Part shown: one piece after another, positions 18,236 to 41,207 of the stretch
How the letters are laid out: the number at the start of each line of letters is the position of its first letter
Position numbering within the stretch: position 1 is the first letter of the stretch
Source: Amia ocellicauda
Taxonomy: Eukaryota; Chordata; Actinopteri; Amiiformes; Amiidae
Length of the DNA stretch: 64,000 nt
NCBI RefSeq assembly: GCF_036373705.1
Contig: NC_089853.1
Location: forward strand, 6,373,905 to 6,437,904
Direction of reading: 5' to 3'
Program-made: the position numbers and the translations under genes
Notes under the pieces: model-generated
Told to the model about the DNA's origin: nothing
What the model saw: only the letters and a program-made list of their open reading frames with translations
Database searches by the model: none

Positions 18236-20420
18236 CAGTGTCTTACACAGTGACTAGAGCCCCTCAATTTCACACCAACACGTACCCGTGGGCAGAATGA
18301 CCAAATCTCAGGTCAGAATTACACTGAAGCAAGAGACAAGTATCTTTTCTGTCAGAAACGAAGCAACAGGAAGTAAGCATACATTCTGGTTTTGGCGTTA
18401 ATACATCTACTAAAGGATCTGAAAACCCATGGCACTGAAAGGAAGCAACAGCACAATGTGTATGACCAGTCACAATGTTATTTGTAACAAAGCCCCACAT
18501 AGTGATATGAAACCACCCTTGTAGGTTGAATTAGGACAAAAAAAAAATGTTTCCCTCCCCGAAGCAGTTACCTTGTTTAGTAATCAAGTAGTGCACTTGG
18601 TTGCATATTGCATCCAAATATAAACATCTCGATACACACCTTTCTTGTTTAACGTGAATGACTAAATTGGGTCTATCTACCCAAACAGCCTGGTGTTGTT
18701 TTTCACAATGAAGACCTACATTTTGACTGTCAGTCCCAGGGTTGTGCGGTTCAATCATACCCTGAGGGCTGCAAGAATGGCAATGTTTTCACACAACAGC
18801 ATCTGCCACGATGAGAACCCATTGCTTTTCTTGGCAGCCAGACAGGCAGGTACAGTAACCAGAGACAGACAATCCTGCCAAAAATTGTGTCTCTTAATAA
18901 AATGCCAGCTGCCACATCAGTTTCCACCCACTGCGGAAATCCCGTGAAGTGTCCCTCAAGTGAAGAAGATTGCCTGACTTACCACAGCCAGTGGGCTGGT
19001 AATAATCCACATTGCTAGGATCACAATTCATATGAAAAACTGACTGCATGCATATAAATAAGATCCATAAGCTGTATAACAAAAAATACAAAATATGGAT
19101 ACAGACTTAGATATTAAAATAAAAGACTAGACAAATGCACTGTATGTTGTATATTTATTTTGATATGGTGATATTATCTACAGACTTAATTCAGTATTTG
19201 AAGCTGATCAATAAAACTCTTGTTTTACATGTAAGACAGCAGACGCAGAAAACGGTGCAGGTCCACGTTTGGAAAGTCTGATAAAATATCAAATACAATG
19301 TGTTCAACCTTCCTGCAGTGCCTGTCCCTTCTCCCCCAGTCACAAGAATGAATTATTGATTTGAGCATCATCGACAGATAGATAGATAAGAGTTTTGTTC
19401 ACACTCATTAATCCCAGAGAATAAATAGGCCACAACAACAAAGACATTAAAAGAACGGTGGAGACAAACCCGAGCAATTAATCAATTAGTCATCCGATCC
19501 TCCCTGGACACTGACCGACACACCTGACCGGCAAAGTGGACACGACACTACCCAGCAGTGCATCCTGTTATATATGAGAGAGACAGCCCGGAGCCTATGA
19601 TCACACGACTTGAGGACAGGTCACAACAAGACCTGCCCCCACCCTTCAGATATAGGAAGATCTGTGCTGCTCTTTCTGTGCGAGAGTGGGAATGCAAAAA
19701 CCAGAACACATGGGTCTATGTGGATACAAGTAAAACCAGTTTAGACGGTTTAAAGGTCGCATTTTAAAACAAGAAGCAGCTGACTGTCCCACTTTGACAC
19801 CCGTACTGTCAGCCGCCACAACCACGGCCGGGCTTCACTGGTCGTTATCCCTGCTACCGGCTCGGACCCGTGTTGTTGCTGTGTGCGAGCGTGTGCTGGC
19901 CATGTGTGTACTCCAAAGGAAGCGCCATCCCACACCCGGCCCTGGGTGTCAACACCTGGGTGGGAGCCGGAGCTGGAGCCGGCTGTCTTTCGCCAAGCGT
20001 GCAAATCCGGGAAACGAGCGCAAGCGCCCGCCCCGCGCTGCGCACGTCCTGCTCAAGTGTAAACACGAAGCCCCCGGTAATCACGCAGATACAACACACG
20101 CAAAACCCGCATCTGCAAGCCGGGGCACCGAGCCGATCGGCAGCTCCCGCACCGGAGGAGGAAGAGGAGCCCGACAGGAGCAGCCGGATTAGCGTCTCTA
20201 CCTGTTTCTCCAGGAACTCCTCTTCAGCACGAAGCGCCCGTCACGCCGCGGCCTCGTCCAGGCATGTGTCCCGGGGGGAAATAAAGCGCAGGGCCCGCTG
20301 TTTGTGGGGAAAGAAATGGGAATTAAAAGTACTGAGGCTGCGATGGAGTGATGTCATGCGAGAACAGACAGGCAGCGGCGCAACAGGTCACATGCTTCCT
20401 CCCGTTCCGGCCTCTGCGCC

Positions 20421-20468
20421 GCCGTGCGTTGCGTGATGACGCCGTGCGTTGCGTGATGACGCCGTGCG
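20421..20468. repeat. 20-base tandem repeat in CpG promoter
   Basis: Two identical 20-base units, GCCGTGCGTTGCGTGATGAC, plus a partial third. Each unit-unit junction makes a TGACG ATF/CREB-type half-site. Confidence 0.85.
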
Positions 20469-20472
20469 GTGG

Positions 20473-20484
20473 TGCGCATGCGCA
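20473..20484. promoter_or_regulatory. NRF1-type site
   Basis: TGCGCATGCGCA is a perfect palindromic match to the NRF1 consensus, typical of CpG promoters. Confidence 0.55.
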
Positions 20485-20700
20485 GGTGGGCGCAGCGCAA
20501 ACGTGCTGGGAAGAAGGCCCGCCCGCAGGAGAGTGCAGCGCGTTGCCTCCGCCAATGAGGTCGCCGGGATTGTGCAGATCTGCGCAGAACTGCGGACAAT
20601 TGCGCCGCATAACGTGAGCGGTCAGCAACACCACCGCCCGTTTGCAGCGAGTCACGGTTTCGTCCTGCCCTGGAGGCGGGTGTAGTTATGGCCGCAATCA

Positions 20701-21700
20701 TTCAATTCACGATTAGCTCTTACGGTCGCCTGCGCACGGTGGGGCCTGGATTCATTGGGCGTTATTTCGTAGTGGATCGTTATTGTGTTTTATATGTCAC
20801 ACACGACCCTCACAAACCAGTTCACTGATGCATTTGGCTCTTATACTAAGACATATAATAAGCCAATGTACTACATTCAAAGTATAATAATATACAATGC
20901 AAGGCTCATATACAATTATTAAATAGGCTTTCCTGCATTTAGAAAATATGGATTTCGGGTTAAATTAGAGCAGATTGAGTTAGCATTGCATTTATTTAGG
21001 GCCAAGACACAATTCTCGTTTGTAACTGGCTCATCCCCAACATGACTGTCCCATAAACACAGGAAACTGAATCATAATTTACGATTCACGATCAATAATT
21101 ACAAAAATAAATAAATGTATGTAATTCATAAATAAGCATGCAAAAAGCCAACATAAACAAAAATACAAATAACATAAAAATCAGTATTGCAAATAATTAA
21201 AAACACGACAACAGTAGGTTATGTGTGTGTGTGGTTTATTATTACATTGTGTTGCGTTTTGAGGATATAGCAGGACACTGTTTTCATACTTTCCGTTTAC
21301 AGTCATGTTTGCAAGGTCATCAGAGCTCTTCCAGCAAGGCAAGTGGGGGCAAAGTTTATATTGCATCTGCTACACTGCGGGAGAAACACTGTACACGTCA
21401 CATGCCTCACTATAGGACAATAAATACACATAGATGTGAAAACATAATGACAGATCTAACTGCACCAATTTTACTATAGTAAAGTATTGTTGGTTGAATT
21501 AAAACCAGTTTAATTATGTATTCCTATATTTATTTTATATTACCAAATGCGCCTATGACTGGCATTAAAATTGGTTATCGGAGATAAAGACTAGATATCT
21601 TCCCAGGCAGTGTCTGTGTAGACAAGGAGATTAGAAATGTGCATGTTCAAAAAGACAAGAAAGAAAGTGAATTGCTTACAAATCAGATCGCTGCGCTTTT
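20701..21700. other. Intergenic spacer between nr1h3 and the THAP gene
   Basis: The spacer is AT-rich with no supportable exon or repeat family. The two genes are head to head, with their putative starts about 1.1-1.5 kb apart. Confidence 0.5.
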
Positions 21701-21921: not shown

Positions 21922-24385
21922 ATGCCCGTGTCCTGTGCTGCTGTAGGGTGCACCAATCGGTTTGTTAAAGGATCGGCCATAAGGTTTTACAGGTAGGTGA
22001 GTCCTGGCTGCTTGTGGCACGTCGGGGCTGTTTGTTCGCTGCGGGCTCGTTGCGTGTCGGCTCTGGTTTCCTGTGCAGCTCTTGCAGCTCTTGCAGCCGC
22101 CCGTGCGCTGCCTCTGCGCAGGCCCGCACTCTGCACGTGCTCTGCGGGGCTGCACCGCAGGCTCCATCAAATGCACCCAATTCCAGAGAGAGCAACCCCC
22201 CACTCACCCCTGAGAGGGACTGCTAGTCTGCATAGATGTGTGTCTCTTATCTCAGGTTCCACTGTGATGCTGTGGGTCTCCACCTCCTCAAAATCGTCAT
22301 GTTTCTGTTGTGTCAGTGAAAAAAGCTTTGAAGCTCCATCTTGAGGCATCAGCTTTTTGTTTCATGTGTAGCAGTTGTGCTATATGCTAACTCCTTGTTT
22401 GCATGTCATGTCACATTTACTTGGTTTATTTGCAGCTGATCCATCTGTTATTGGTCAAGTTTAAAAAATGATTAAAAAAACCCATTCCTTCTCATTAGGT
22501 TTTCCCAGAGGAATAATATTGCTATTACAGGAATAATAGGCACAAAACAAAACCGGTGGAATAGACAATAAATCTAAAGCTTTTGTCTCAACAAAAGTAG
22601 GTTAAGAAAAACCAGCAAAAGCTGCCACAGTCTACTATACCTTTCGAAATGAAACCGAAAAATGTCTCTTCTCTCCGTGGGACACTGTTAAGGGAACACC
22701 ACCGTACTCGCATTGTGCAATAGTGTTATGTAGTGTTTGTGTATAATAATGCCAAATGACAGATATCTTGTTCTGCTAAGTTGTTGGTCCTGATATTAAA
22801 AAAAAAACAAACATTAAGAACAGCTGTGATTTGCAGTTCGCCCTGCTGGGCTCGTTTGTCTTTGCACTTGGTGACCCGAGCCGTAGCTTTATGTATGTGT
22901 TGGTTTTCAGAGTCTTTCTGACGAGGTCCAAGCTCGGGATCTTTGACATCAAATGGCCCTTTAAACAAAAATGTGATCTTACAGTCGATCTGTCAGTGAA
23001 TTGGTTTCGCCCCGGAATCGTCGCACACGCATCGATAAAGGATGCGTTTCTAGACCTGACAAAAATCCACATGTACATTTTAAATACATTTATTTAAACA
23101 GAGTGTGAAATGGTGCTCAGAAGACTAGCACTCTATACAACATCCAAACACAAACACCGTGTCCTTTATCCACAGCAGTGCATTACAGTTCCAGATACAC
23201 CGCATCCTGAGAAATTTATGGTGATGCGATAATTGTTAATATAAAATTACAGAAATAGCTATTTTTGAACATTGTCATAATATTTTTTTTGTTTGTTTAT
23301 TTGTTTACCATTAGGGTAAGCATCCCTTTTCCTAATTACAATTCAGCATACCCTGCGAAGAGACAAATATTCACTTCATATTATTAACAAACAAAATATT
23401 AAAAGCAAACTTTTTTGGCTGGAGGCTTTTGGGCTTTTCGTGACGAATCCATTTTGTGCACTTGTTGTCTTTGTCACGCAGGTTTCCTATCAGTAAACCA
23501 CAGCTAGCTGCTCAATGGGTCCAGAATCTGGGTCGCAAACTCTTCACCCCCACCTCTAACACTTGTTTGTGTTCGGAGCACTTCCTCCCAGACTGTTTCA
23601 GAGACTACAGCGGCAGACAGTTTTTGAGGGAAGATGCCGTTCCTACCATTTTCGGAGCCCCTCCGCACCCTGAACCCGACGCACCCAAGGTTAGAGAACA
23701 TGAGTCAATTTGTTCCTCGACCGAAAGAGACAGAAACGGATGGAAGGGTATTAACGAGCAGTCGAGTCGTTAGTGGTGCCCAGTTTATGAGGTTACTTTA
23801 AAGGTCTAAGGTTGAATGTAAAGAGGATCTGTGCTGTGACGTAGGCCCAGTCCAACGACTCGGTTATTCCCACATACCTGTCTGTTTATCATTTGGTGAG
23901 ATGGTTGCATCATAAATATTAATTAATATTAAAAATATATAATTAATTTTTTTTAAATGATATTGAAAGGCAAAACCACCAATGACAGTAACTGATTACT
24001 AATATTGAAGACCTGACCACCCCCCTCCCAGAAAAATAAATTAATAAAAATGCCTTTTCAGATTGAATCGAGAAAAACACGAGGGGGGATAAACTCGAAA
24101 GATCAACGCAAGATGAGAAACATGCATTACGCCACGCTGTCGGAGCAAGAAAAGGCACAAGAGCGAGAGAGAGCCAAGCTACGGCAGAGAAGCAGAAGAC
24201 AGAAACTGAAAGAGGCGGCCACGGGGAGTTACAAGGTAAATACAATCACCTTTTTGTTTGTATGCAAATACGTATTTAAAATTCACATTATGAAGATGTG
24301 GTCAGTCGTGACCTTCACCCATGTTCCGCAGTGCAGCTGGATCGAGCTGTGGAGCGGGGAGTTCGAGGTGGCGTGTTACTGCTGA
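21922..24385 (+). CDS. THAP-domain zinc-finger protein, four coding exons
   Basis: Exons 21922-21992, 23482-23689, 24062-24235 and 24332-24385 join in frame (507 bases, 168 aa). Residues 1-~85 form a THAP domain: MPVSCAAVGC start with C5 and C10, conserved RF(P) after the first exon, W35, the CSEHF motif, and the closing AVPTIF, i.e. the C2CH zinc ligands and the AVPTIF box. THAP domains bind DNA in a sequence-specific way. Residues 94-151 are highly basic and charged (RERERAKLRQRSRRQKLKEA), likely a helix and nuclear signal. The last exon adds CSWIELWSGEFEVACYC. The paralogue is not identified. The last intron is 96 bases and open in frame, so a retained form would insert 32 residues. Confidence 0.8.
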
Positions 24386-26760
24386 AGTGCCTGGTTACGG
24401 GGGTGGTATGGATTCAGGTGTGAATGGTACATTCCTGGAGTTCGATGGGGTTGCTGTTTTCGGCTGGAGACCCACAGGGAACCCGCCACGTTAGCCTCTT
24501 GAGTTCCCAGCACACGAGATCTGGAAAGCCGCAATGGGTTCGGCGTGGCTTTTTCTGTCCGCTTTGACCACTGTCCAGCCAGGAACACAAATGTCTGATG
24601 GACAGGCCTGCCTTGCTGAGCGCCAGCGTGCCCGGCTCTGGTGCTTCCGACAAGACGCAGATTGGAGGAATCTGATGAATTTCCTGACAGGCTAAACTCC
24701 GCCTCTGTGCTGGCGACTGTCCAGGTGTGACTGTTGACTCAGCTGTGAAGCACCTCGGGGAGCTACATCAACTGAAGCCGTTCGTCCTTATGTTATTCAT
24801 TTATGCTCTTTCATCCTCATCGCGTCATGCCGGGCGCTTGGCTCCGGGCCCTGTGACAGGACTGTCGAGTGTGACTAAGCATTGACCTCTGGCAAGAAGC
24901 CCGAGCGGAGGCTCACTGGTGTACTGGTTGACCATTTCCTTTTTGACAACATCTTCCCAGGACGCAGTCTGTGGAGAATGGGGAAAACTCTTGCCTGGCG
25001 GATTGATGGAACTTGAGGAGAGAAACGGTGTCATTTGCGCACGTTTCCCCAAAACAAAGTCGTTCAGCGGAGTCTGACAGGTGGACGGATGTTCATCAGG
25101 ACTGCAAACCTCTCTGACAAGCAGATGCAGATGAGCACGAGCAAACGCTAGAAGACCAGTGGAAATGACGAACTGGGCGCTCACGAAAACGGTGTTACTC
25201 TGTCCGGTTTTGACAGCAAAGAACCCAATTCAATTTGCTGACTTAAACAGATGCTCTTTTTATTTATTTATTGAATCGTTCCTCTTAGTTTGCTTTTGCC
25301 ACTTCGGATTGCCTGTAGGTCTCTGCAAAACAAAAACAAGAAGTGTAAAATGACTGTGTATGCCGCGGTCATTTATGGCACATTACGTCTGCGGAGTCGG
25401 GTTGAGTTGGCAATGCCTTAGTAATAATGTCCACTATGGGAGGCTGACCTGCAAAGGGATTTGGCTCTGACCTCTGCTGTGATGCTGGTCTGAGTGGAAG
25501 AATGGCTTATTGTGTTGCTCACTGCAGCCAACAGTTCCAGGTGATTTGGGGATCAGCTAACCAGAGGTCTGAGTCTGTATTAGAAAGGCATAGTATTGTT
25601 GCTACACGCAGCATGCTCTTTTTCCCCATGTTGTAGATATGGGCACCCTGTCTCACACAGCCTGGGGATAAGTACACATAGTGGTACAAACTAACTAATT
25701 GTGTTGAACAGGTTTAAGCCGTGTTTTAATTAATCCTAGGATGGATTTTGACATTGTGCTCAGCAGGACGTGAGATTGTACACGCCTGGGTGTGTTGATA
25801 AATAAATAACTGTAACCAACTCTTTTGGGCCTACAGGAGTTGGGTGACTTGAGCTTTACTGACGCGTTGTGCATGTTTGTATACATGTATTTGAACAGTA
25901 GGTGTGACGTACACGTACATACGTGACGCTTAAGTAAACAATGTTTATGAGGGATGATGAGCAGGCTAGAATAAGAATATTTTTTGTGGAATGTTGTCTG
26001 CACTATATTTAGATGTATATAGGCTAATACGTTGAAAAACGAGCCCCGTACTCTTTGTTTGCATAACGATCGATAACTGATCTGTTCCACACGAACAACT
26101 TTCTACAGAACTGTATGGCCAAAAGTGGCAGTTTTCCCAGAACTTGAATTAATGTATGTATATATAATGTATATATTTTTTTTTTTTTTTTTTTTTTTTT
26201 ACACTATTTAAGATCTGTCAGCGATTTGGAGGTAATTACAGGGATCCGTTAAGCGATATGTATTTCCTGGCTGCTGTTGAAGAGAGAGTCAGGCCAGAAG
26301 ACGTAGGGAATATAACAATAGGGAGTCTTTCTTCATACCGGTATATTAGTGGATTTATTACTACAGCCCATATGTGTGAGAACCATTTATTTAATCATGT
26401 ATCGGAAATGGTTACTAACATTTAAATGAACAAGCAATTCATGTTTGATTTATACAGTTTAAAAAATAATGGCGAGACGTGGTAACCTGAAACAGTAAAT
26501 GCCTTGCTTTGCTATAATATACAGTACAACCGATCGAACTACCAGTACCATAAATTACTATGATAGACAATGTACATTAGTGTCATGGTACACCAAGTAC
26601 CATACTGTCAGAAATACCGTGGTGCACAATGTACCACAGTGAACCCGTCCAGGTGTGTGTATCCTCAGATGCGCCAATCAGGAGGCTACACAATCAATAT
26701 GGTCCTGATGAGGTGCACATCGGCGCCTGCGCACTGCGCTACAGTCCGTGACGCATTTTC
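24386..26760. other. Intergenic DNA between the THAP gene and arl14ep
   Basis: No exon could be supported on either strand. Antisense open frames at 24414-24653 and 24825-25184 lack domains and start codons of quality. A poly(T) run of about 30 lies at 26167-26200. Confidence 0.5.
26167..26200. repeat. Poly(T) run
   Basis: About 30 T after an AT-rich stretch; it may be the tail of a retrotransposed copy on the minus strand, but no body is recognisable. Confidence 0.8.
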
Positions 26761-26774
26761 ATTATTGATGCGCA

Positions 26775-26979
26775 TGACGTCACTCAACCGGAACCTTTGA
26801 TGTTGCTTAATTGCCAGCGCGTCGTGTCTTCTGGCAGTGCGCCAAATTGATTAATTGGCACTTTTTGCGGAGTAGGCTGCGGGCACACGCCTGCTTATTT
26901 ATGCGACACAAACCTGCTACATAGTTTTGCAGCTTACACAGTTGAAATCTTACAGACCTGGTCACCTGCAGTATTCAAG
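26775..26979 (+). promoter_or_regulatory. CRE-containing promoter with a possible alternative first exon
   Basis: A full cAMP response element TGACGTCA is at 26775-26782. A TATA-like CTTATTTA lies at 26894-26901. Downstream, a possible non-coding exon ends at 26979 with a good donor (TATTCAAG|gtaaac). It points toward arl14ep and may be an alternative start for it, or a separate transcript. Confidence 0.35.
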
Positions 26980-27159
26980 GTAAACGTTTATATATATATG
27001 TATTTATTTGTATTAATTAAATATTTTTCATGTTTCATATGAAATGCAAAAATACATATTCATCCAGTCACTGTTAGTACACTGGTTGTGCGAATGGTTG
27101 CTTTAGTCGGAGAAACGCCTAATTCCGTGTTTAATTGGAGGGGTGACTGCTGTGCTACA

Positions 27160-27900
27160 GGGTGAATTCCGCGACTTGGACCGAGCGCAGTTCCCCCGGC
27201 GGGGCCTAGAGGGCGCTGTGGCTATTTTGGCTCCGGGTCCTCGGCGCACTTCCCCCGCTGAGGCCTAGAGGGCGCCGTCGTCGTCCCCGACCCCAGAGAG
27301 GCGGAGCCGCGCCATTACACCCGAGCTCGGCAGCATGAAGATGTGGAGACCCGGCCGCGGAGCGAAAAGGGTGAGCCGCCGAAGCGAGACGGGCCTCCTC
27401 TCGGGGACCCGGCGGACACGGCTGTCTGTGCGGGAAGAGGCCCGGCCGCTTAGAGATCCGCGGCGCCGCACGTCGCTTCCCCGCGTCCGCCGCCCGCACA
27501 GCCGCTGGAGTCCGCGCTGCGCCCCGGGGCCGCCGGTGCTGTGTTGCGTTTGAAATGCGTCTCATTGACGGGCGATTAGTGATGTCGGCGCGTTAACGCC
27601 GGGCTCTCCGGGCTGCTGCTCGGGCCGGGCGGTGGCCGCTGCACTGCAACGCGCCGTTTCTTTCGTTGGTGGTAATCGGCACGGTTGACCTCTCGGCACT
27701 GCTGCTGTGTTTCGCGCTGGTTTTGGACGTGTATGGACACGTGTTTGCCGTGACAAACCCCCGGTCGGACGGGTTGAATGCACGCCTGTGTCGCGGAGCT
27801 GCGCCGGGGAGAGTCCTCCGCCTGCGGGCAGTGACCTGCACCGCCGGCCCGGTGGCTGTCCGTGTGCTCTCGCTTGTGTTTGCTTTCCAAAATACAGTCC
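27160..27900 (+). promoter_or_regulatory. arl14ep: CpG-island promoter of arl14ep
   Basis: The stretch is GC- and CpG-rich and TATA-less. A likely non-coding first exon ends near 27369 (GCGAAAAG|ggtgag or one base on). Two copies of a CTCF-like motif (27203-27220, 27262-27279) sit before it, 60 bases apart. Confidence 0.55.
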
Positions 27901-29443
27901 ACATTCACATTATTATTATTATTTTTTTGGATGCGACAGTCATATACAAGTTTATTTCTCTTAGTAGTAATACTAGTTGGAAAGTTTAGGAAAGGAACCA
28001 AAATTGCCTTCTCACTTTGTTTTGCAAAGCTCTTGTGCAGCTTTCCTGCAAAATTGAGGTAAATATGTATGTAGGCCTGGTAGTAAAAAGCTTATTAAAA
28101 GGAGTTATGAAACCAGTAATACCCCATTTCAGATTTGGTTTTAATGCCAATAAAATATATGTACAGGGAAGCTTGAACCTTTGAGAGTCTACATGGAAAG
28201 TCACTTTCCATTGGAGGTGGAAAGGTGTTCTGTAACACAGTGTGTAAAGTCGTGAAGGACCTAGTTTTCGGATATTTCTCTCTCTCCAAAACACGAAACC
28301 CAAGTGGGTCTTCCTGCTTAACTTTAAGAGGAAATGCTCAGCTTCTAAACAAAGATTGCCAATTCTGAAATTGGAGAAGGGCGGCCTTGCTGTAGCTGGT
28401 TTTTGTTTTTGTGGGGTTCTCCTGTCACTTTCTCAAGGCTGACATTAAGATCACAGCCTTGCATGTTTACTGGCACGACACTGATCGCATGGCAGTGCTG
28501 CTGCTGCTGGCATCCTTTTGTGTTCAAGAACAGCAATCTCTTGAAGTCGGTAAGATGGCAGCTGTGAGTGATATCTGGCTTTCTGTCCCAAGGGGAGGCC
28601 TGTGCTACTCTCTCCAGTCTTCTGGTTTTAAATTCACCACTAGCGGACGCCTCGCTCCTCTGGGCACATGAGTGAGCCCACCCTGCCCTCTAGCTGTCAA
28701 AGATCATCCGGCACCTGCCTTTGCCCCCCCCTGACGTACAGTTGGTGATTATGTTGCTGTAAACCTTCAACCACGGTTTCGTCTTGCGTTTCATAGCAGT
28801 TTGAATTATTTTTAAAACCCCTGCTCGTCTGCGGATCTGTCTGCTCGGCCTCGTTTTCGTCCCCTGTAGTTGGTTTTACTGTCAGTATTTTCTCTGTTCA
28901 ATGATAACTGAAGCTCATTACAACAAAATGATAAGAATACAGTTCTTTGGGAGAATACACACATTAGTATTTCACAAATCCATAGTTGGCACTTTTTCTT
29001 CAGTTGTTTAAGCATCAAAGTGGTTACACACACTTGTTCTATCTATGGCAGAACAAGTCATGCTAGTTTTTCAAACCCTTTCTTGAAAATATATTTTTGG
29101 AGGTATAGCCTAAATATTTGTCATAGGTTATTGTACTCGTGTTCAGGAGAGTGTCATGTGGAGAATGCTCAATGTAATTTTCTTTTTTTTTAATTAACAC
29201 CAATAATGAAGCCTTATTAGCTTTGACATTTGTGAGGTAAAGATCTCATTGACTCTAATGCTTTTCCCAGGGTGCCCTACATAGGATCGTCCAGCTGCAT
29301 TGGAGATTATAAATTCCCGCCAATAATACTTAACGACCAAACGCCACAATAACACTATCAGTAAAACAGGAGTAATAACATAGAAAACTCATCCTCCAAT
29401 AAGCACAAGGACTGCAGGGAGTTGTCGGCCGTAGCAGGAGGCC

Positions 29444-31059
29444 ATGGCGGAGCTCAGACCCTGCACGGTGGGGGAGCAGCTGCAGGCGGCGCAGGACTGC
29501 CACAAGACGTACTTCTGCCGCCAGACGGGCCTGAAGCCCATGAGGGACATGGTGCCGGATGACGCCCTGCTCCTGCAGCTGCGCACCGGCCTCATGAGCC
29601 TCACCGAGCGCGACACCGTGTGCTTCCACCACGAGAGGCTCTACGTGGACCGCTACGAAGACATGCAGAAAGCGTGCAGCGACCCGTTCAACTGCCACAA
29701 GAAAGCCATCAAGAAAGGCCTGCGCACCATCGACCTGGACGAGGCCACGTTTCTGAGCGAGAGGTTCGCCAGGCAGTTTGTCCCGGGCTGGAAGCTGTGC
29801 GTCCGGTGCGCCCAGCTGGTCAACGGCTACGTTGATCTGGACCCCGAGTCCCGGCACAAACGGAGGCTTGATAGTGAAGTATGTATGAGGGAGTCTTTCT
29901 CTTTGAAACCACCGAGAGAGCAGACAGACACACAGCCATAGCAGTGCAAGGACCAATGTCCACTGCTTAATCTGAAAATTGGGAGACTCGCTTTAATCAG
30001 TTATACTTTTTTCTTTCTCAGGTTTTAAGGGGGTTTTACTTAAAAAAAACAATTCTCAGAAGCCCAGCTTGTCAATCTTTATATGCATTTAATTTCTGCT
30101 ACAATTTGCAGGTCTCATGCACCTTCTGTGACTTATTTTGGGAGAAAATCAAAATGTGAGGCACGCTGTGTTACACCACCGTGTGCAAATTGGATGCATT
30201 TGAAAATGACTGTTTTGGTTTGTTTTTTTTGGAGGGTGCATTTCTGCATCTTCTGCCGGGGATCTGCTCTTTGTACTTCCACAGTGGGTGTAGGAAATGT
30301 AATGCAAATACTTTCCCACCTCAGAACAATGTCAATATCAGGTGCACTTGCTTGGCTTGTCAACAGTGGCTCTTTGTTTTGCAGGGGAGGACAGCAAAGG
30401 CCTTGAAGTCGCTGGAGTTCGCCAACCCTGGGCGCCAGACCGAGTTCGCACCCGACACCAGCAGGAGGGATAAAAGACGACAGACCAAGCAGTCGAACAC
30501 AGACCGGTAGGCTGGGTTGAGTGGAAACTTTTGTTTGTTGTTGTAAAGATTTATGAGGAATGTATTTGCAATTGTCTGTTGCTCACACTAAATAGTAATC
30601 AGAAGGTTATTTTGAGGGAGAAAAAGTTAATTTCCTTCCCTATAGGACTTGCTTGGGTGGTTTCACATGGCTTTTGCAGACAAACTAGAAAGGAAGATGA
30701 AACCGAAGTTCTGAAATAGTGTGTAGTTTCTGCCTCTGGGTTCACTTGTGGAGGACAGTTCATTTTAATGGTTTCTTATGGATTTTGTGAAATTACCGGT
30801 GATGACACCCAACCCCTTCTTCATCCGCAGACAAACGATCAACACCAAGAGCAAAGTGTACGACAGCGACGGCCTGCTGATCTCCAGCGGCCGGGACCTG
30901 TGCGACTGTCTGGACTCCGAGTGCCTGGGCTGCTTCTACCCCTGTCCCGAGTGCAACTCCCGCAAGTGTGGCGTCGAGTGCCGCTGCGACCGCAAGTGGC
31001 TGTACGAGCAGGTGGAGGTGGAGGGCGGCGAGATCATCCGGAACAAGCACGCGGGCTGA
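29444..31059 (+). CDS. arl14ep: ARL14 effector protein
   Basis: Exons 29444-29878, 30385-30506 and 30831-31059 join in frame (786 bases, 261 aa; human 260). In mammals the protein links the small GTPase ARL14 to myosin 1E and controls movement of MHC class II vesicles. The N-terminal half ([20 protein letters not shown]..., with conserved [21 protein letters not shown]) and the C-terminal cysteine-rich block ([35 protein letters not shown], ending HAG) match the family end to end. The ATG has a strong context (gccATGG). The 5' leader exon probably begins at 29271 after cttttcccag. It lies head to tail with the THAP gene. Confidence 0.96.
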
Positions 31060-31689
31060 GGCGGGCCGCTGCTCCGCTTCCGTACACCGCGGCGGTAGAA
31101 TACTTAATTTGATCGTCTCTGTCGGAGACGGGGACGTTTTGACTCGGCGACATGTGAGACTGACCGCCTGGTCGTCTTGTTAGATGTTCTGAAGTTTTTC
31201 CTGTTCTTTGTTTTAATGTTTTATTTTTAAAAACACTTTAGGAGTACCAAAGAAGTTCCAAACTAACGTCATTGTATGTGTATGTATGTTCCCACACACA
31301 CACATGCACACGTTCATTTTAGGATGCTTTGTTCGAAGGTACGCATGGCGAAGTTTTAGTTTAAGAGAAGGCAGATTTTTTTAAGAACGGATTCTTCCTT
31401 TATAAATGTAGTTACTGAACTGAATGTGGTGAACGCTATGTTCTTCTGAGAACAGCCGAGTAAACGTCGCTCCATACGGATCCCAGTTGCTCATGTTACA
31501 CGCGTGACCCTCGCAAGACCGAGTCCGTGCAGCGCCGACACGCGAGACACGAAGCCACTCATTCCCGTTTTCTTTATCTTGCAACAAGACAATACCATAC
31601 ACAGTTTCATATTCTTTTTTGTTCTCTCCCGAGATGGTTTGTTCAGTGAATTTATATTTCTGTTTTGCAGAGAAAACCCATGTATGTAA

Positions 31690-31695
31690 AATAAA
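31690..31695 (+). terminator. arl14ep: arl14ep poly(A) signal
   Basis: AATAAA 630 bases after the stop, followed within 30-50 bases by a GTGTGTGTGTG downstream element. Confidence 0.75.
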
Positions 31696-31739
31696 GTTTA
31701 CTTTTATATAAAAGTCTGTTGAAGTGTGTGTGTGTGACG

Positions 31740-33600
31740 TTATTGTGCTTGGTGTTTCGTGTGCATTCACAGCTATTGTGTAAAATCCTGCTGTGTCAAG
31801 CCGGGGTGTCCTTGCTGTGCTGGGAGTGTGGTTATATAACGTCCTGATTTCATTGTCATCATTCGAGGGACAGATCAGGCAACGTACTCTGGAAATTTTC
31901 CAAAATCATGTCCTCTTCCTTGATTTATAACTGAATTGTAGCCCATGGTTGCGAACCTCCTCCATATCTGTATCCAGGCTGAGTGCTGGCCTGTGTGTGT
32001 TGTGCCTCTTAGTTCAATCAAATGATATCGGTTGGGAAATTTACATTCCAGCCAGTGTTGACGCTCAAGCCCTGCCCGGCCGTGGCTTTTTGTTTCCTGC
32101 ACGGGAATGCAAATTGCCCAACAATAACAAAATGGCAATATTTGCTGGAGAACAATCAAATAATTGATTGCAGACCATGCTTCTGCCAGAAAGGGTTTTT
32201 CTGTTCCTAAACGCTAGTGTTTCAGTACAGTACGCGTCTTTGTGTGTTTGATACAGTTTAATCTGTGTTTTTTCGTAACTATTGGCTTACATCTATTACC
32301 AACAACGACGAGAGCTTGCAAAGCAGTGCGGGTGTTTGAGCTCTCGGTGTAAATCAACATTTGCATTTATTTTTTTCCAGCTTCTACCTGATTGTCAGCA
32401 TCATTTTTCAAGTTACTGGACTAGGATTGACTCAGAATAAATGGTGAGTTAAGTCACTGTGGTGGTTAAGATCTAAATAAAGGAGATTCGATTCATTAGC
32501 AAATAGTGTTCTATTTTTGTGAAAAAATCCAAGTTTGTTTTTTTCATTTGTTTAGTGTTTTTCATTGATTTGAATTGGTAACTCTTTATTCTGTCTTAAA
32601 GAGGCATGGTGTTGTGTAGCATTACAGTGCAAACGCATGAAGTGCATTTGAACGACTTAGTTATCTCCTATGCAATGGCCTTTCTCGAAGGAAAAGGCAA
32701 TTTTGGGTCATATTCTTATCGTATGGACCAGCTTGTTCAGCTGAACCTTTCGCCTAAGAAAACTAAAACGGATTCAAGTTATAGGGCAGCACAGAAACCC
32801 CTCCGAATGTTACTTTGTGTGGAGTTGCCCATCAGTTACTTTTAAAAACATGAATTCACGCTTATAATTAACAAAAAAAAAAAAGGTTATTTACATTTGT
32901 AATAATGATTATCACCTTATATAATGTACTGAATTTTTTGTATCTGTGTATAGCTCGGAATCCTTTTGAAAAGGGTCTGAAGCTGACGATTCAATGTCTT
33001 AAATGTAAACCTGACTTGAAATACCAAGACAAATGAACAACAGGGGTCATCGTCACAAGTGTAGTGCGTCTGACGTTTTGTATCTTCCAAAGATGACCAA
33101 AATAATGACGACAAACGCAACAAAGGCGTGAGTTACTCACGTGCCATCCCTGTTACATGGGGTTACAGTTCAATATTTTTTGGTACGGGTCCTAAATCAC
33201 TGAAGTTCTAATAGAAAATGATTGTAGAATTTGCAGAAACTTGAGCACAGTCTTCTCAGCGCTTCAGCACGGCCCGTAACTATGATTCTGTTTGGAAAAT
33301 CGTAATTATCTAGCTTTTCCATTTCAACACTGACCTTCCCTACTTGTTTGTGCAACTGCAGTGAAGAACAGCAAGTCACCCTGTGCCTCACATTGACATT
33401 AAATGGAAACTCCTCTCGTTGCCTGTTTGCAAAAGGGAATCCATTTGGTGGCGTATCTGGTACAAAATGTGCAGCCCGGTGTATTCGAGGAGGCGAGGAT
33501 TTGTCAAGGCTAAGCAGAGTGTAGGCTGAGTCAGAGGGGTTGCCCGGCTCTCCCAACTGCTATCTAAGCTGTGAGGGATTACATACAGGTGCCGGTTTAT
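31740..33600. other. Intergenic DNA downstream of arl14ep
   Basis: Mostly AT-rich, unique-looking sequence. No supportable exon, repeat family or RNA gene was seen. Confidence 0.5.
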
Positions 33601-33675
33601 GAAATGTGTGTGCGGCTCAGGGACTCACTCACTCACTCTCAGGTGTGCAAGGCTGACTGCGCAGCGCCAAGGATA

Positions 33676-35687
33676 ATGGAGTTAACCTTGCGTGCTGAGC
33701 TTCTGTCCATCTCAGGCAGGTGGGTTGTCAGAGTTTGATTGTACTGCTGTTCAGTTAGTAGTTCACTTTGGGGTTTAAATTTAAAGCCTTACATTTTTAT
33801 ATATGGGAGGTTACATGCCATGATAAGTGGTCTATGCTTAAACTACCTTGACTTGAGTAAGAATCTCCTGGCTGACTGTCCATTGAAGGTGGGCCATTGT
33901 CACGTTTCCGCTGTACCTTCTCATAGTGACAACACGCAACCGTCACAGTACTTTGACAGGGGGTTGTGTAACACTTTCGGACGCAGCCGACGTGCAGTAG
34001 AAGGGGCAGTGACGGAGAACGCCACCGTGTCACTGCCAACGTGCAGCTTTCATCTCGTAGAAATGCAGAGTTTGTAACCTTGGGATGGAATATCATAAAG
34101 CCTTGAACTATTTGTTTTTAGGTAAAAGCAAGCGGCAGGAATAGCAAAAGCACTAAACTCACAGCAGAGGAGACGTCAGAAGCCGATGTAGCTCGTTATT
34201 CATCAAAGTGCCGTTGTTTATCCAGAGTCTAAGTTACTGCCTCATGCAGCAGTGTGTAATTTTTAATAGGGAGACTGTTAAGTTACGAGCTTACAATCTT
34301 TATTTTAAGGAATGCTGGATAGTGGGTTTCCGCCTGTGTTTCGCTTTTCAGAAAGCTGCACCATAAAAAACGCAATAAACTGGAACCATGTTCAAAGCTT
34401 TCTTCTCGAGGGGAAGCATTTCCATACATTTCAACAGCATAATGATGGAATAAACAAAGAGACTCCTTTGAAGTCCTGTTTTTATTCTTCCTGGTAAAAT
34501 TAGTCATTCTGTCAATGAACAGAAAGAGTGAAGGAAGGAGTAAATAAATATATAAATAACTTGTCACACTATTCTGTTCACGCATCCCTTTGTCCCACTT
34601 TAGAAGAGGAGACATGATGAACGCAATGCAGTTTGACGACCATGCGGTGCAGAGACAAGTCCAGGAGAGTCTGCAGAGACACTGGGACGCTCCACTGTAC
34701 CCCTGCTGCACCCCCGTGACCTCCAGATTGGCACAGCACAGTCCCCTCTTCCTTCCAGACCCCGAAGATGGCTCCCCACTGGCGAGACCCACTGTGGACG
34801 CCCAGAAACTCGACACATCGGAGGGAAAGCGCATCGCTGTGAACACGATGGAAATCATGCTCGATGTCCGGATGGTGAGAGGGCACCAGGTGAGCAAAAG
34901 GCAGGCGATTCCTCAAACGCGATTCTGGCGTCACACGACTCGGTCCAAGGCAGTGAAAGCAGGTGAAAATCTTGAGGAAGACCCCCTCAGTGACAAGCAA
35001 ACCTTTCTTCAGTGTCAAAAGGCAGTCAAATGGTCCCACAGGTTGAAAAAGGGGGCGGGGCAACAACCACAGATTGTTGTGTGCCAAAGCAAGGGAGACG
35101 AGACAGCAATAGGCCCTAAAGAGCACCCAGAGTTAGGGCGCCACGAGTACGTTGTTTTAAGACTGCCGGGAATCTCTCCCAGTTCGGATTTCCCCCCAGA
35201 AAATCAAGCGCAGGTCAGAATAATGTCATGGCTGCGCCCCCCGCCCCCGCCCACCGCCTCTGTACCACGCCAGCTGAAAAGCAGGGTGAGCGAAGTGAAC
35301 CGGCTCCACGGCCCGAGAGCCCTCCAGCTGCAGTACGAAGGCAAGGTGGCGCAGAGTTACGGGAAGAGGAAGACCCCGGCGGACACAGAGAGGCCCCCCA
35401 GGAGAGACCGCCAAAGCAGCGAACGCAACGAGGCGCTGTTTTATATTAAACTGCCCGAGCTGCGGCTGAAAGTCGGCCTGGTTCATCGTCCCCGACACAG
35501 AAAGTGCGAAGACGTGGGAGGCGAGAGCAGAGGGAGAGACGCTGACCCCTGCAGCGGCCCAGTGGAGAATCCCCCCGCAGGAAACCCCAACAAGGAGAAC
35601 AGGACGTCCAGCATCCAGGTGAACACGGCGAGGGCGACACTTAGCGTGCAGGGAAAAGTGCACGACCGCCGGGAAGCAGGGAGCTGA
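33676..35687 (+). CDS. Unrecognised two-exon protein between arl14ep and fshb
   Basis: I do not recognise this protein. Exon 1 (33676-33719) starts at ATG in an optimal context (A at -3, G at +4), encodes MELTLRAELLSISG and ends at a gtgggt donor. Exon 2 begins at 34604 after cccactttag and runs open for 1084 bases to TGA. The joined length is 1128 bases (375 aa), exactly in phase. If exon 1 is wrong, translation could start at 34614 (358 aa). The product is hydrophilic and basic, Pro/Arg-rich after residue 220 (MSWLRPPPPP), without membrane segment, zinc site or catalytic motif. Two similar hydrophobic cores, EYVVLRLPGIS and LFYIKLPELRL, flank the Pro-rich part. A poly(A)-like ATTAAA is near 35894. 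It could be a fast-evolving, possibly germline-type, gene, or a chance frame. Confidence 0.55.
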
Positions 35688-36525
35688 ACATCGTGAGTCT
35701 TGCTGCAGGAGAACAGCATCGGTATTGCAGACGCGCTCCGTGGGCACAGAAGGGCCAGGGGCAGGACTGGGCTGTGTGTTTTTCTACCACTGCTGCCTTC
35801 CATAGTCTTTATTCTCCAGCACACTGAGGGACTCTTTCCACAGAAGAACAAGGGGAGGCAGAAACCAAAGACGTTTATATAATTTAAAACACTATTAAAT
35901 CATATACCTTGCCTTTTGATTTCTTGTTCTTTTTCTTATTGTTATTATTAGTCTACATGTGGCAACAAGCCGTCTCGTTCTCTTCCAGGTTCTTTATTGG
36001 TGCTGGTCTGCGTGTGAGACGAACATGCAGAGTCTTGTTCTCCTGCAAAAGCTTTAGTATGACAGGATCTTTGGTGGGTGGCTGTTAGCACAGAGGTGAA
36101 ATTCAAATTGTCCTCCTCTGCTTACGATTCCATAGTGACCACTATCTTTGCTGAGATCAGACTGCAAGGATACAGAATTACTGATCGCAGATGTGTTTAT
36201 TTTCAAATGATATAACAGTGATGTGCATGATTGGGACATAGAGAGAGGGAGACATGAACGAGATTTAGAGAAAGAGACATGGAAAGGATAGACAGCTATG
36301 CAAAGTGGCATTTGAATCATATTTCTGATATTAACATATTTTTATCGTGATTTTTCCACATCTTTACCATACTATACTTTACCATTTTTAACCATATTTT
36401 TACCAAGGTTTACCAAGTTACCATGCTATACCACACCACACTAAGCCTTACTGTATTTTAATGTCCTACTGAGTGACAATTTGGGAATATTAAAAATGGA
36501 CTGGATAGGATCCTTGGATCACTTA

Positions 36526-36950
36526 CAGTGAGGGAAAAAAGTATTTGATCCCCTGCTGATTTTGTACGTTTGCCCACTGACAAAGAAATGATCCGTCTAT
36601 AATTTTAATGGTAGGTGTATTTTAGCAGTGAGAGACAGAATAACAACAAATAAATTCCAGAAAAACTCCCTTTAAGAGAGTGCTCCTAATCTCAGCTCGT
36701 TACCTGTATAAAAGACACCTGGGAGCCAGAAATCTTGCTGATTGATAGGGGATCAAATACTTATTTCCCTCATTAACATGCAAATCAGTTTATAACTTTT
36801 TTGAAATGCGTTTTTCTGGAATTTATTTGTTGTTATTCTGTCTCTCACTGTTAAAATACACCTACCATTAAAATTATAGACTGATCATTTCTTTGTCAGT
36901 GGGCAAACATACAAAATCAGCAGGGGATCAAATACTTTTTTCCCTCACTG
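36526..36950. mobile_element. Tc1-derived miniature transposon with 141-base inverted repeats
   Basis: The arms 36526-36666 and 36810-36950 are near-perfect complements (about three or four mismatches), beginning CAGTGAGGGAAAAAAGTATT. A TA flanks each end. A second copy of the inner motif GGGATCAAATACTTATTTCC lies in the centre, giving the inverted/direct repeat layout of Tc1-like elements. There is no transposase. The high arm identity suggests a recent insertion. Confidence 0.93.
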
Positions 36951-38132
36951 TAGTTATTAATGGACACCAAACGAGCACGATGGGGCGAATGGCCTCCTCT
37001 CAATTCGACACTTTCTTGTGTTCTTTGTACTGTTAGTGCACCACACTACAATCTTGTAGGGGACAAAAGTGTCACACCCTCTTAACTTGGCCCATGTTCC
37101 CGTAGGACATTGCTTATTCCCTAAAGACACTTTAAGATGCCTTCTACCACGCCTTGTCTTTTCCTATTGATTGTGTTGTTATTGTCTGTGTGGCAAACAG
37201 GACAGGAGGAAACCCTGTTTTACCCAGAGGGGTTAGTCTGCCACAGCGCCGGACAGCCAGCGGTTCAGCTCCACTGCCACTCCACTGGAGTCTCACACAA
37301 GTCTGCCCGTGGTGCTGTAGGAATGTCTGACTAAGTAAATACATTGAGTTAAAAATAAACATGGGAAAGGAAAAGTGTATTCGCACTAGGTAAAATCGTC
37401 TGCTAATAAATAAAGAAACAAACCACTACGTTAATGCTAATACTATGTTTTTATGTAATCCTTTTCCAAGGGCACATTTCACTTTGGGGTCTATAGCTCC
37501 TCACCAGAACATTACCTTGTTCAACCTAAACTGCACTTCAGTTTCGTGAGGAGCCAGGACTCTGGATTCTGAGGGTCAAGACCAGCTCAGCGCTGCGTTT
37601 CCAAGCCCACTCACTGAATGAATCCCCTTCAGCTCCACAGAACATCCTGTGACATTTTGAATGTCCTTGGCACTTAATTAAATTATCATAGAAAATCCCA
37701 CAGTTGCACACAGTATAATGCCTATCAAAGTAGAGGATTTCATCCCAGGCTTCTAACAGGGTGCTGTTGTTTTTGTGTTTTTCGACATACATACTTGTAT
37801 AATGCAGAATCAGTTTATACTCTTTCCTAATATTAGCAGGCAGCAGACATGGTGTGTGGCATAAATCACTCTGCAGCCACCGGCTATAGACCCAGCTCCC
37901 CTGAAATCCCTTTGCAGCGGTACAGATGTGTCCAAGCTTCATGCAAATATATATTTTAAAATGCATGCAACCTATGAGGCAGAGATGGATGGTTTAGGTC
38001 CTGTGCTCATTGACTGTGCCAGCGGCGGTGTGTGAGTGCGAGTCACACAGCAATGCACTTCCTGTAGAGAGTTTGCCAGCATAAATAAATAAATAAATAA
38101 ACAAACAGACACACAAACAAATAAAAGGAGAC

Positions 38133-38146
38133 GGGGGGGGGGGGGG
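38133..38146. repeat. G14 run
   Basis: Fourteen consecutive G after a TAAA-rich stretch (38083-38123). Confidence 0.9.
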
Positions 38147-39427
38147 AAGTCAGGCCAATACCACACAGCCCTGCAGGTTCTCGCTGGCTCACGGATAGAC
38201 AATATTATTAGATTGGCGTTTCCTGTGACTGCTGTCTGGTCAATGAGCAGCCAGCAGCCTCCTGTCCTCCTCACTCACTGACACACGTGTGCTCAACGTC
38301 CCGAAACCCTTCCCAAATGTACAGACAATCACAATCAGAGGCATCGGAGGCTTTCGCTCTGCTGTGGGCTGTGTGCGCAGTGGGCGGGTGTTAAAGGGAA
38401 ATGCCTCCACAGAGGGACAGAACCACCTTGTGTCTCATCCCTGATTAAGCACTTTCCCTCCCCTGTGCCTCATTTGTTGAGTCTAATACAATGTTTTGCC
38501 CCAGTGTGTAACTTATTGCGTTACATTGCGATGTATTCTACGTTTGCGTTGTGAAACCTCTGTTTGCTGTGTAGAACTTATTTCAGCCCATTCTTAAGTG
38601 TACATTACCAGCCTAATCAATTCCCTGTACCTTGCAAATGTGTAGAACAATATGTGCGTGTGTATATTTTTGGAGCCTTGTTTGTTTTCTCTAGCACTGG
38701 TCACACAAGTGTGGGTCAGAGGCCTCCGGTCTGGCTCCTCCAGCTGGGAGGAGAGCTGTCAATAGTACATGCAGACATATGTAAGCTTTTTTATATGTCG
38801 TGCCCTTTACAGTACTTCAGGGAGGGAAAAAAGAGTGCGAGTGAAGGAGTGAAGGATTACTGTTCCCTGGGGTGACCCCTTTAGCTCAATGCAGAAGGCA
38901 GGGAACTTCTATGGACAGGGTGGAAGAGCATCCATATCTTTTAGCTGCAGCCCACCTGTTCATTGAATTAAAGATGTGACCGGCTCTTATTTATAGAGGT
39001 GCTTGGTAAGGGAATCTTTTATTGTCCCTTCACTCCACTAAGTTTTGACCCCTGGTTTTGACCAATGCTAAATAGTGAATCCATTGTGTTTGTCACTTAT
39101 TAATTTAAAACAGCTGGAAAGACAGACCCGTATTGTTATTCTTGTATTACTGTTAATGCCCCCCACCATGTAAAACAGGAATAACTTATCCTTCAGTTTT
39201 CAACCACACTAGTTGTGAATATAGCAAAAAGACAAAAACAACATTGCCACAATTAACCTGTGTAAAAGTTTAATGGCAGAACTGTTCTAGGCTTTCCATT
39301 TTGAATACTGAACACATAACATTTCTCTGAACCGTCTCTGGCAACTCTATTGCACCTCCTAACTACATAAGGTGAGAAGAACAGTTGAATTTGGTAATAA
39401 TAATTGTTCTACAGTATATATAACACT

Positions 39428-39453
39428 ATTATTATTATTATTATTATTATTAG
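39428..39453. repeat. (ATT)n microsatellite
   Basis: About eight or nine ATT units. Confidence 0.85.
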
Positions 39454-40209
39454 CTAATTGGTAAATAAGCCTGTGATACACATTTCTCTATTGATAGTAA
39501 ACCTATCGATGTTGGCAGAAAAAACAAGACGAAGCAATGCACACACAGGGCACCTTGAACTCATGTGGAGTTAGCAACCGATCTCCTTATTAGCTATAAA
39601 TTCTGAAATGTGTTTGTGTCATTACCTATAATTGAATCAAATGTAATTTCAGATCAGTCTATTCAGGTCCACACAATCTCAAATGTAATTGATATGCATT
39701 GCAATATGCAGTCTTTACCAGCAAAATTGAAGGGGCTAATATTAATATTAATGAGACAGCATTGTCCTTATTTTCAGTACATAGCCATCAGCTTGTTGAA
39801 GATGTGGATTAAATCACACGTCTACAGTCCAACGAGAAGGGAGTGAATCTATAGTCTCTGAGGGATCTATATTAGCAGTTACGTTGACTCAGATGATCAT
39901 TAAGGGACGTCTGGGAATTGTAGCTCACATCCGTCACTTTTCCTTCAGTGAACAGGTTATAAAAGATGATATATTAATATTAATAATGAGAGAGACCTGT
40001 GCTCACACCTGCAGCTGCACTTCAACCACCAGATGTAACCGTGCAACGCAGGGTGTGTAACAAACACTTCCTTCTGTGGATCAATATCTGGTTGCTGAAC
40101 TCCTTGCTTTGAAAATTATGTCGGGGATGAGAAAACTGGGGAACAAGCATCAGCAGAGGTACCAAGGAAATCACACACTATTACTGACTTCTGATTACTA
40201 ATTGATTAT

Positions 40210-40923
40210 CTAACTGACCAGGCACTCGGGGGGCCCTGAACTGACCGCCGCGCAGTCTGTGTTGTCCGTGTTGCACTGGCTACACTCGCAGCTCAGCGCC
40301 AGGGGGTAGGTGAAGGAGGGCTCCACTCCGGTCAGGCAGTTGTGCAGCTTGATGGTGGTGTAGGAGACCTCCTTGAAGTTGCAGCTATTCTGGGTTATGA
40401 GGGCCATGGAGCTCTTAAACACAGGGTCCTGTCAAAGTCCAAGGAGCAAATCAGTGTGTCAGTGATTCTGAAAGACAGGTCTAACTCTGAGCCAAAGCCC
40501 CAATCCCTCCACCACCCAAGCTCTCACACTCAAGACCAGCTCTCTCGCCCAAGACAAGCATGTTGATATAGTGCCAAGCATTCTTAACTGCATTTGTAGT
40601 ATGTTGTCTGGTTTAATATTAAGGTAAGAAGATAAATGATACTCGCTAAACCCAGGCTGGCCAAACCCAATTCTTGTGTGCCAGTTAAACCAGTAGAACC
40701 ACAGCCCTAACCTCAGTCCCTGTCTTGCCCTGCGTTGTGCGGAGGTTGTGGGACGTACCTGTGTCTGGCAGTGTCCGGCACATGCGGTGGTGTTGATGGT
40801 GACACAGTTGCCACACTCCTCACTCTCCAGCGCCAAGGAGATGTTGGTGAGGCCACAGTCTGTGTCACCGTGGACAGACGCGCAGCACAGCATCGCGGCA
40901 CCGAGGAGCAACACAGAGCACAT
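40210..40923 (-). CDS. fshb: Follicle-stimulating hormone beta subunit
   Basis: Secreted pituitary glycoprotein subunit; pairs with the common alpha chain to form FSH, which acts on gonadal FSH receptors. Coding exons 40923-40759 and 40428-40210 join in phase 0 (127 aa; human 129). Residues 1-~19 are a signal peptide (MCSVLLLGAAMLCCASVHG). The mature chain has twelve cysteines in the cystine-knot spacing, the CAGHC motif, the seat-belt cysteines (CNTDNTDC ... PEC), and two N-glycosylation sites (NIS and NTT). The intron site after CQTQ is the one conserved in gonadotropin beta genes. The acidic CNTDNTDC loop fits FSH more than LH. Exon 2 begins at 40934 after tcctgtccag. Confidence 0.95.
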
Positions 40924-41207
40924 CGTGGAACCAGCTGGACAGGAGGAAACAGAACCAACAAGCAAGGAACCAGCGAGTCAAGAAAAGGACACACACACAT
41001 ATATACATACATGAAATTCAATCCCTACAACAAGCTGATGACAAGCTTTATAGAGAATTGCAATTATTGAATGAAGCGTGCCAGTTTACATCAACGACAA
41101 ATTAAAGGAAGAAACAAAGACACACAAAGGGAGCATAAAATAAAACTATTTCAGTTGGTGGACATTAAGTCCTGTAAAATGTAATGTAAAAAGGAGAGCG
41201 TGCCAAC

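Follow-up and report, generated by a model that had tools for sequence, protein, structure and literature searches.

The DNA between arl14ep and fshb in Amia ocellicauda holds a single-copy open reading frame with coding-like codon periodicity, set off by a step in GC content and encoding a basic, hydrophilic sequence with no known domain, and we put the probability that it is the main exon (exon 2) of a real coding gene at about 0.75. The window, that is the whole stretch of 64,000 nucleotides analysed, belongs to contig 4 in an assembly of 988 Mb and 385 contigs, and all positions refer to it unless a contig is named. We propose a single-copy protein-coding gene on the plus strand, the body of which would be one long 3' exon running from 34604 through the stop at 35687 and on to a polyadenylation site near 35.9 kb. 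This exon would probably be spliced to a short 5' exon, splicing and transcription both being predicted from the genomic DNA. The predicted product, of 357-375 aa, would be strongly basic, rich in proline and arginine and mostly disordered.

Proposed gene model and neighbouring genes

The proposed model comprises the following features:

33676-33719, plus strand: proposed exon 1 (44 bp), with the start codon, 14 codons and 2 bases; in phase with exon 2 and single copy
33720-34603, plus strand: proposed intron (884 bp), GT...AG, with a GC content of 0.42 versus 0.59 in exon 2
34604-35687, plus strand: exon 2, coding part up to the TGA stop (1084 bp), with an open frame and periodicity; single copy
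34890-34895, plus strand: donor-like site CAG/GTGAGC within exon 2, in phase, scoring 11.6 versus 10.6 for the proposed donor
35894-35899, plus strand: candidate polyadenylation signal ATTAAA, the first A[AT]TAAA past the stop, followed by a T-rich stretch

As the original prediction had it, the 44-bp and 1084-bp exons join in phase into 376 codons including the TGA, giving 375 aa with no internal stop. The start context is also favourable, with A at -3 and G at +4 around the ATG of exon 1, an exon too short at 44 bp for a test of coding periodicity. Since the frame of exon 2 is open over the whole of 34560-35687, it is independent of exon 1, and a product of 357 aa could start from the ATG-ATG at 34614 instead.

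Pfam searches of the window identified several neighbours. ARF7EP_C was found in the frame 30769-31056 (plus strand), which corresponds to arl14ep, while an earlier arl14ep frame (29435-29938) had no Pfam match. Cys_knot was found in two frames at 40.2-41.0 kb (minus strand), at the place of fshb, and the Kv1.4 inactivation and channel domains of kcna4 at 46.9-49.1 kb (plus strand). The candidate gene shares its strand with arl14ep, lying about 2.6 kb downstream of it, and is oriented convergently with fshb. Further away, at 4.7-5.0 kb (minus strand), we found the C4 zinc finger (zf-C4) of a nuclear receptor gene, which we take to be nr1h3; its candidate ligand-domain frame scored below the Pfam cut-off of that domain.

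Three other elements were noted in the window. First, a THAP-domain frame (PF05485, E 1.3e-11) at 23444-23770 (plus strand), between the nuclear-receptor gene and arl14ep, appears from its domain to be an exon of a THAP gene. Second, two CpG-island-like stretches at 19441-21060 and 26731-28350 (GC 0.55-0.60, CpG ratio 0.91-1.18) could be promoters, perhaps serving the THAP gene and arl14ep. Third, just 3' of the candidate gene, an inverted repeat at 36524-36952 has arms of 158 nt that are 94% complementary and spaced by 113 nt, and resembles a small non-autonomous DNA transposon.

Codon-position structure and competing explanations

The codon-position structure of exon 2 is stronger evidence than its length. 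GC at codon positions 1, 2 and 3 is 0.622, 0.469 and 0.672, and none of 2000 stop-free Markov simulations reached either the positional chi2 (39.6, versus a maximum of 30.7) or the GC3-GC2 difference (0.203, versus a maximum of 0.156). This pattern fades beyond the limits of exon 2, and it is unevenly spread within them. The first part, 34605-34889, is periodic (GC3-GC2 reached by 2/2000 simulations, chi2 by 25/2000), as is the last, 35286-35684, in the same phase (0/2000 and 4/2000, respectively). The part between them, 34890-35286, has no significant periodicity of its own, with GC3-GC2 reached by 179/2000 simulations and chi2 by 609/2000.

The point at which periodicity is lost coincides with the donor-like site at 34890. 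Splice-site scores were computed with consensus frequencies over the plus strand of the window. The proposed donor at 33720 scored 10.6, a value exceeded by only 3 of 3680 GT sites. The acceptor before 34604, with a pyrimidine-rich tract followed directly by AG, is the proper one originally described, and 54 of 4281 AG sites score higher. Within 33300-36300, however, the top-scoring donor is that at 34890 (11.6) and the top-scoring acceptor lies at 35989 (13.6), and joining the two keeps the phase and reaches a stop 22 codons on, for a total of 132 aa. The site at 34890 is thus a possible alternative splice site or the start of an exonic intron, and alternative splicing there is a serious rival to the single long exon. 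A real gene of different structure, in which some or all transcripts end exon 2 at 34890 and join it to 35989, or in which exon 1 is absent or an untranslated leader (357 aa), is a possibility that we hold to be somewhat unlikely: the two best sites of the region fit it, as does a periodicity that is strong before 34890 and missing directly after, but the frame is unbroken across 34890-35684 and 35286-35684 is again periodic. We prefer one long exon 2 because the frame remains open and regains its periodicity in the same phase. Of the unrecognised two-exon gene that had been predicted, the coding exon located between arl14ep and fshb has good support. The exact two-exon structure is plausible but not proven, given the stronger donor-like site at 34890, and we put it at roughly even odds.

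Codon choice gave a mixed signal. The synonymous-codon score of -0.002 per codon was reached by 4/1000 simulations, and is below that of 20 of the 23 control coding stretches (20 7tm_1 frames, the two arl14ep exons and kcna4). This weak codon bias, the part without periodicity at 34890-35286 and the fact that no relatives are known would fit a recently dead gene, formerly coding and now functionless, that is still unbroken. Against such a relic stand 375 codons without a stop or frameshift, and we consider it improbable.

The exon could also owe its open frame to chance, within a regulatory GC-rich or a CpG-rich part of the fshb locus. Its composition is not ordinary, as had been assumed, but GC-rich, at 0.59 versus 0.40-0.42 in three flanking stretches. 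The CpG ratio of 0.72 is close to the 0.79-0.85 of the neighbouring coding exons and above the mean of 0.55 in the 7tm_1 controls, and is below that of the CpG islands of the window at 19-21 and 27-28 kb (0.91-1.18). With these values (0.59 and 0.72) exon 2 passes the usual island measures for GC and CpG, and long frames are favoured by GC-rich DNA: among 2000 dinucleotide shuffles of exon 2, read in six frames, at least 300 codons were open in 33 and at least 358 in 2. Frame length by itself is therefore only fairly strong evidence against chance. However, the codon-position pattern appeared in none of the 2000 stop-free simulations, and GC content steps up close to the acceptor: the GC-rich segment fits best at 34637-35772, with start limits of 34579-34661 that contain the acceptor and end limits of 35762-35866, beyond the stop codon. 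A chance frame is accordingly a quite improbable reading of exon 2.

We then compared exon 2 with a background from the same genome, made of 1000 windows of 1080 nt drawn from 200 kb (20 fixed-place stretches on the five largest contigs). The chi2 of exon 2 was reached by 38/1000 windows, of which 32 came from one stretch (L016), 4 from a second (L006) and 2 from a third (L020), and 35/1000 were stop-free in some frame. Both properties were combined in 29 windows, every one in L016, the frame of which is a mucin according to Pfam. In L006 and L020 the long frames had no Pfam match, so that their six windows are not demonstrated as coding. By eye, the remaining frames of at least 340 aa in the sample resemble Tc1-type transposases or tandem repeats.

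Two features were seen in the course of these comparisons. The last ~2.3 kb of another stretch (L008) is a GC-rich tandem repeat without stops in any of the three minus-strand frames (715, 751 and 717 aa), each ended by the boundary of the stretch. On contig C1, the region at about 22.4-24.6 Mb holds roughly 40 of all 147 7tm_1 places that were scored, many with open frames of about 350-360 aa, and this cluster appears to be a large tandem receptor array.

Copy number, relatives and predicted product

DNA searches of the 988-Mb genome itself gave a single match for exon 2 and likewise for the exon 1 region. As protein, exon 2 had one real match. Being single copy, neither exon 2 nor the exon 1 region is a transposon or a recent duplicate, in line with the claim that the frame does not come from a repeat. 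An origin of the frame from a transposon was likewise rejected, as it is not repeated in the genome and has no mobile-element domain and no Pfam match over the cut-off. A paralog or retrogene was rejected as well, the sole extra protein match (E 5.25) carrying two stops and being judged chance. So was a gene on the opposite strand: the antisense frames of 209, 184 and 185 aa had no family over the cut-off (best DUF6419, E 0.15); read in antisense, the candidate frame contains 3 stops and shows the mirror order GC1>GC3>GC2.

The whole frame had no match in Pfam or in NCBIfam. Cut into seven pieces, it gave below-cut-off Pfam matches in one piece only (Recombinase, E 0.036; Cytochrome_cB, E 0.062). 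Among PDB sequences, the best match of the whole frame had an E of 0.33 and the 121-aa middle piece had none. Of the pattern matches, 1 in viral contigs and 17 in prokaryote genome contigs, tblastn confirmed none, and no RNA family reached its gathering score in 31000-41000. Among the literature matches listed for the fshb-arl14ep region and its synteny, the excerpts name no gene in the fish interval, and the neighbours of fshb are not treated in the excerpt of PMC4227674. The suggestion that the gene is lineage-specific or fast-evolving fits the absence of family matches, and fast evolution of the product may be envisaged on that basis.

The predicted product has a pI of 9.8, a GRAVY of -0.92, 10.3% R and 9.4% P. 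A single-sequence AlphaFold2 model had a mean pLDDT of 36 and 0/360 residues at or above 70, which fits disorder but also the missing alignment; a model of this type does not prove disorder. The two short cores YVVLRLPGI and FYIKLPELR had been proposed as a repeated binding motif. This did not hold up: their best ungapped 9-residue pair scores 12 versus 22-32 for the best pairs of shuffles (n=40), and the best gapped self-alignment of the product, scoring 44 and reached by 7.7% of 300 shuffles, leaves the cores unpaired.

We tentatively suggest, as the likeliest mode of action, that the product would be a disordered basic adaptor using short linear motifs to bind partners or nucleic acid; its location would probably be nuclear. 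The tail contains one KEN tripeptide, at residue 345, which is a possible destruction signal, and YVVLRLPGISP, as we see it, faintly recalls a MAD2-binding motif. From these two motifs one might go as far as to picture a gonadotropin-locus gene that evolves fast, is absent from mammals and encodes a disordered cell-cycle regulator of the germ line or gonadotropes, but we judge this very improbable.

Comparison with orphan genes and the human FSHB locus

We regard the candidate as probably genuine, an unnamed gene that is ordinary in kind as long as no special features emerge from comparative or functional data. If real, it would add one gene to the gonadotropin locus, and studies of expression and evolution in fish reproduction would have a clear target. 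Failing that, it would be one further uncharacterised gene. Orphan or lineage-restricted vertebrate genes are, as a kind, single copy, with few exons and no known domain. The candidate shares these features with uncharacterised genes of that kind, as well as a basic low-complexity product, and public fish annotations may hold it as a numbered model.

The interval shares with its human counterpart the neighbours arl14ep, the cystine-knot hormone (fshb) and kcna4. The two loci differ on the far side of arl14ep, where the Amia ocellicauda window has the THAP-domain frame and the zf-C4 nuclear receptor, whereas in human that side holds MPPED2. They also differ between the two genes. The excerpt of PMC2954307 portrays the mammalian gonadotropin locus as poor in genes and conserved in structure, and maps only C11orf46 (ARL14EP) within 100 kb of human FSHB, which agrees with the original statement that no gene is named in the human arl14ep-fshb interval. 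In contrast to the human interval as described there, a coding-like exon is present between the two genes in the Amia ocellicauda window.
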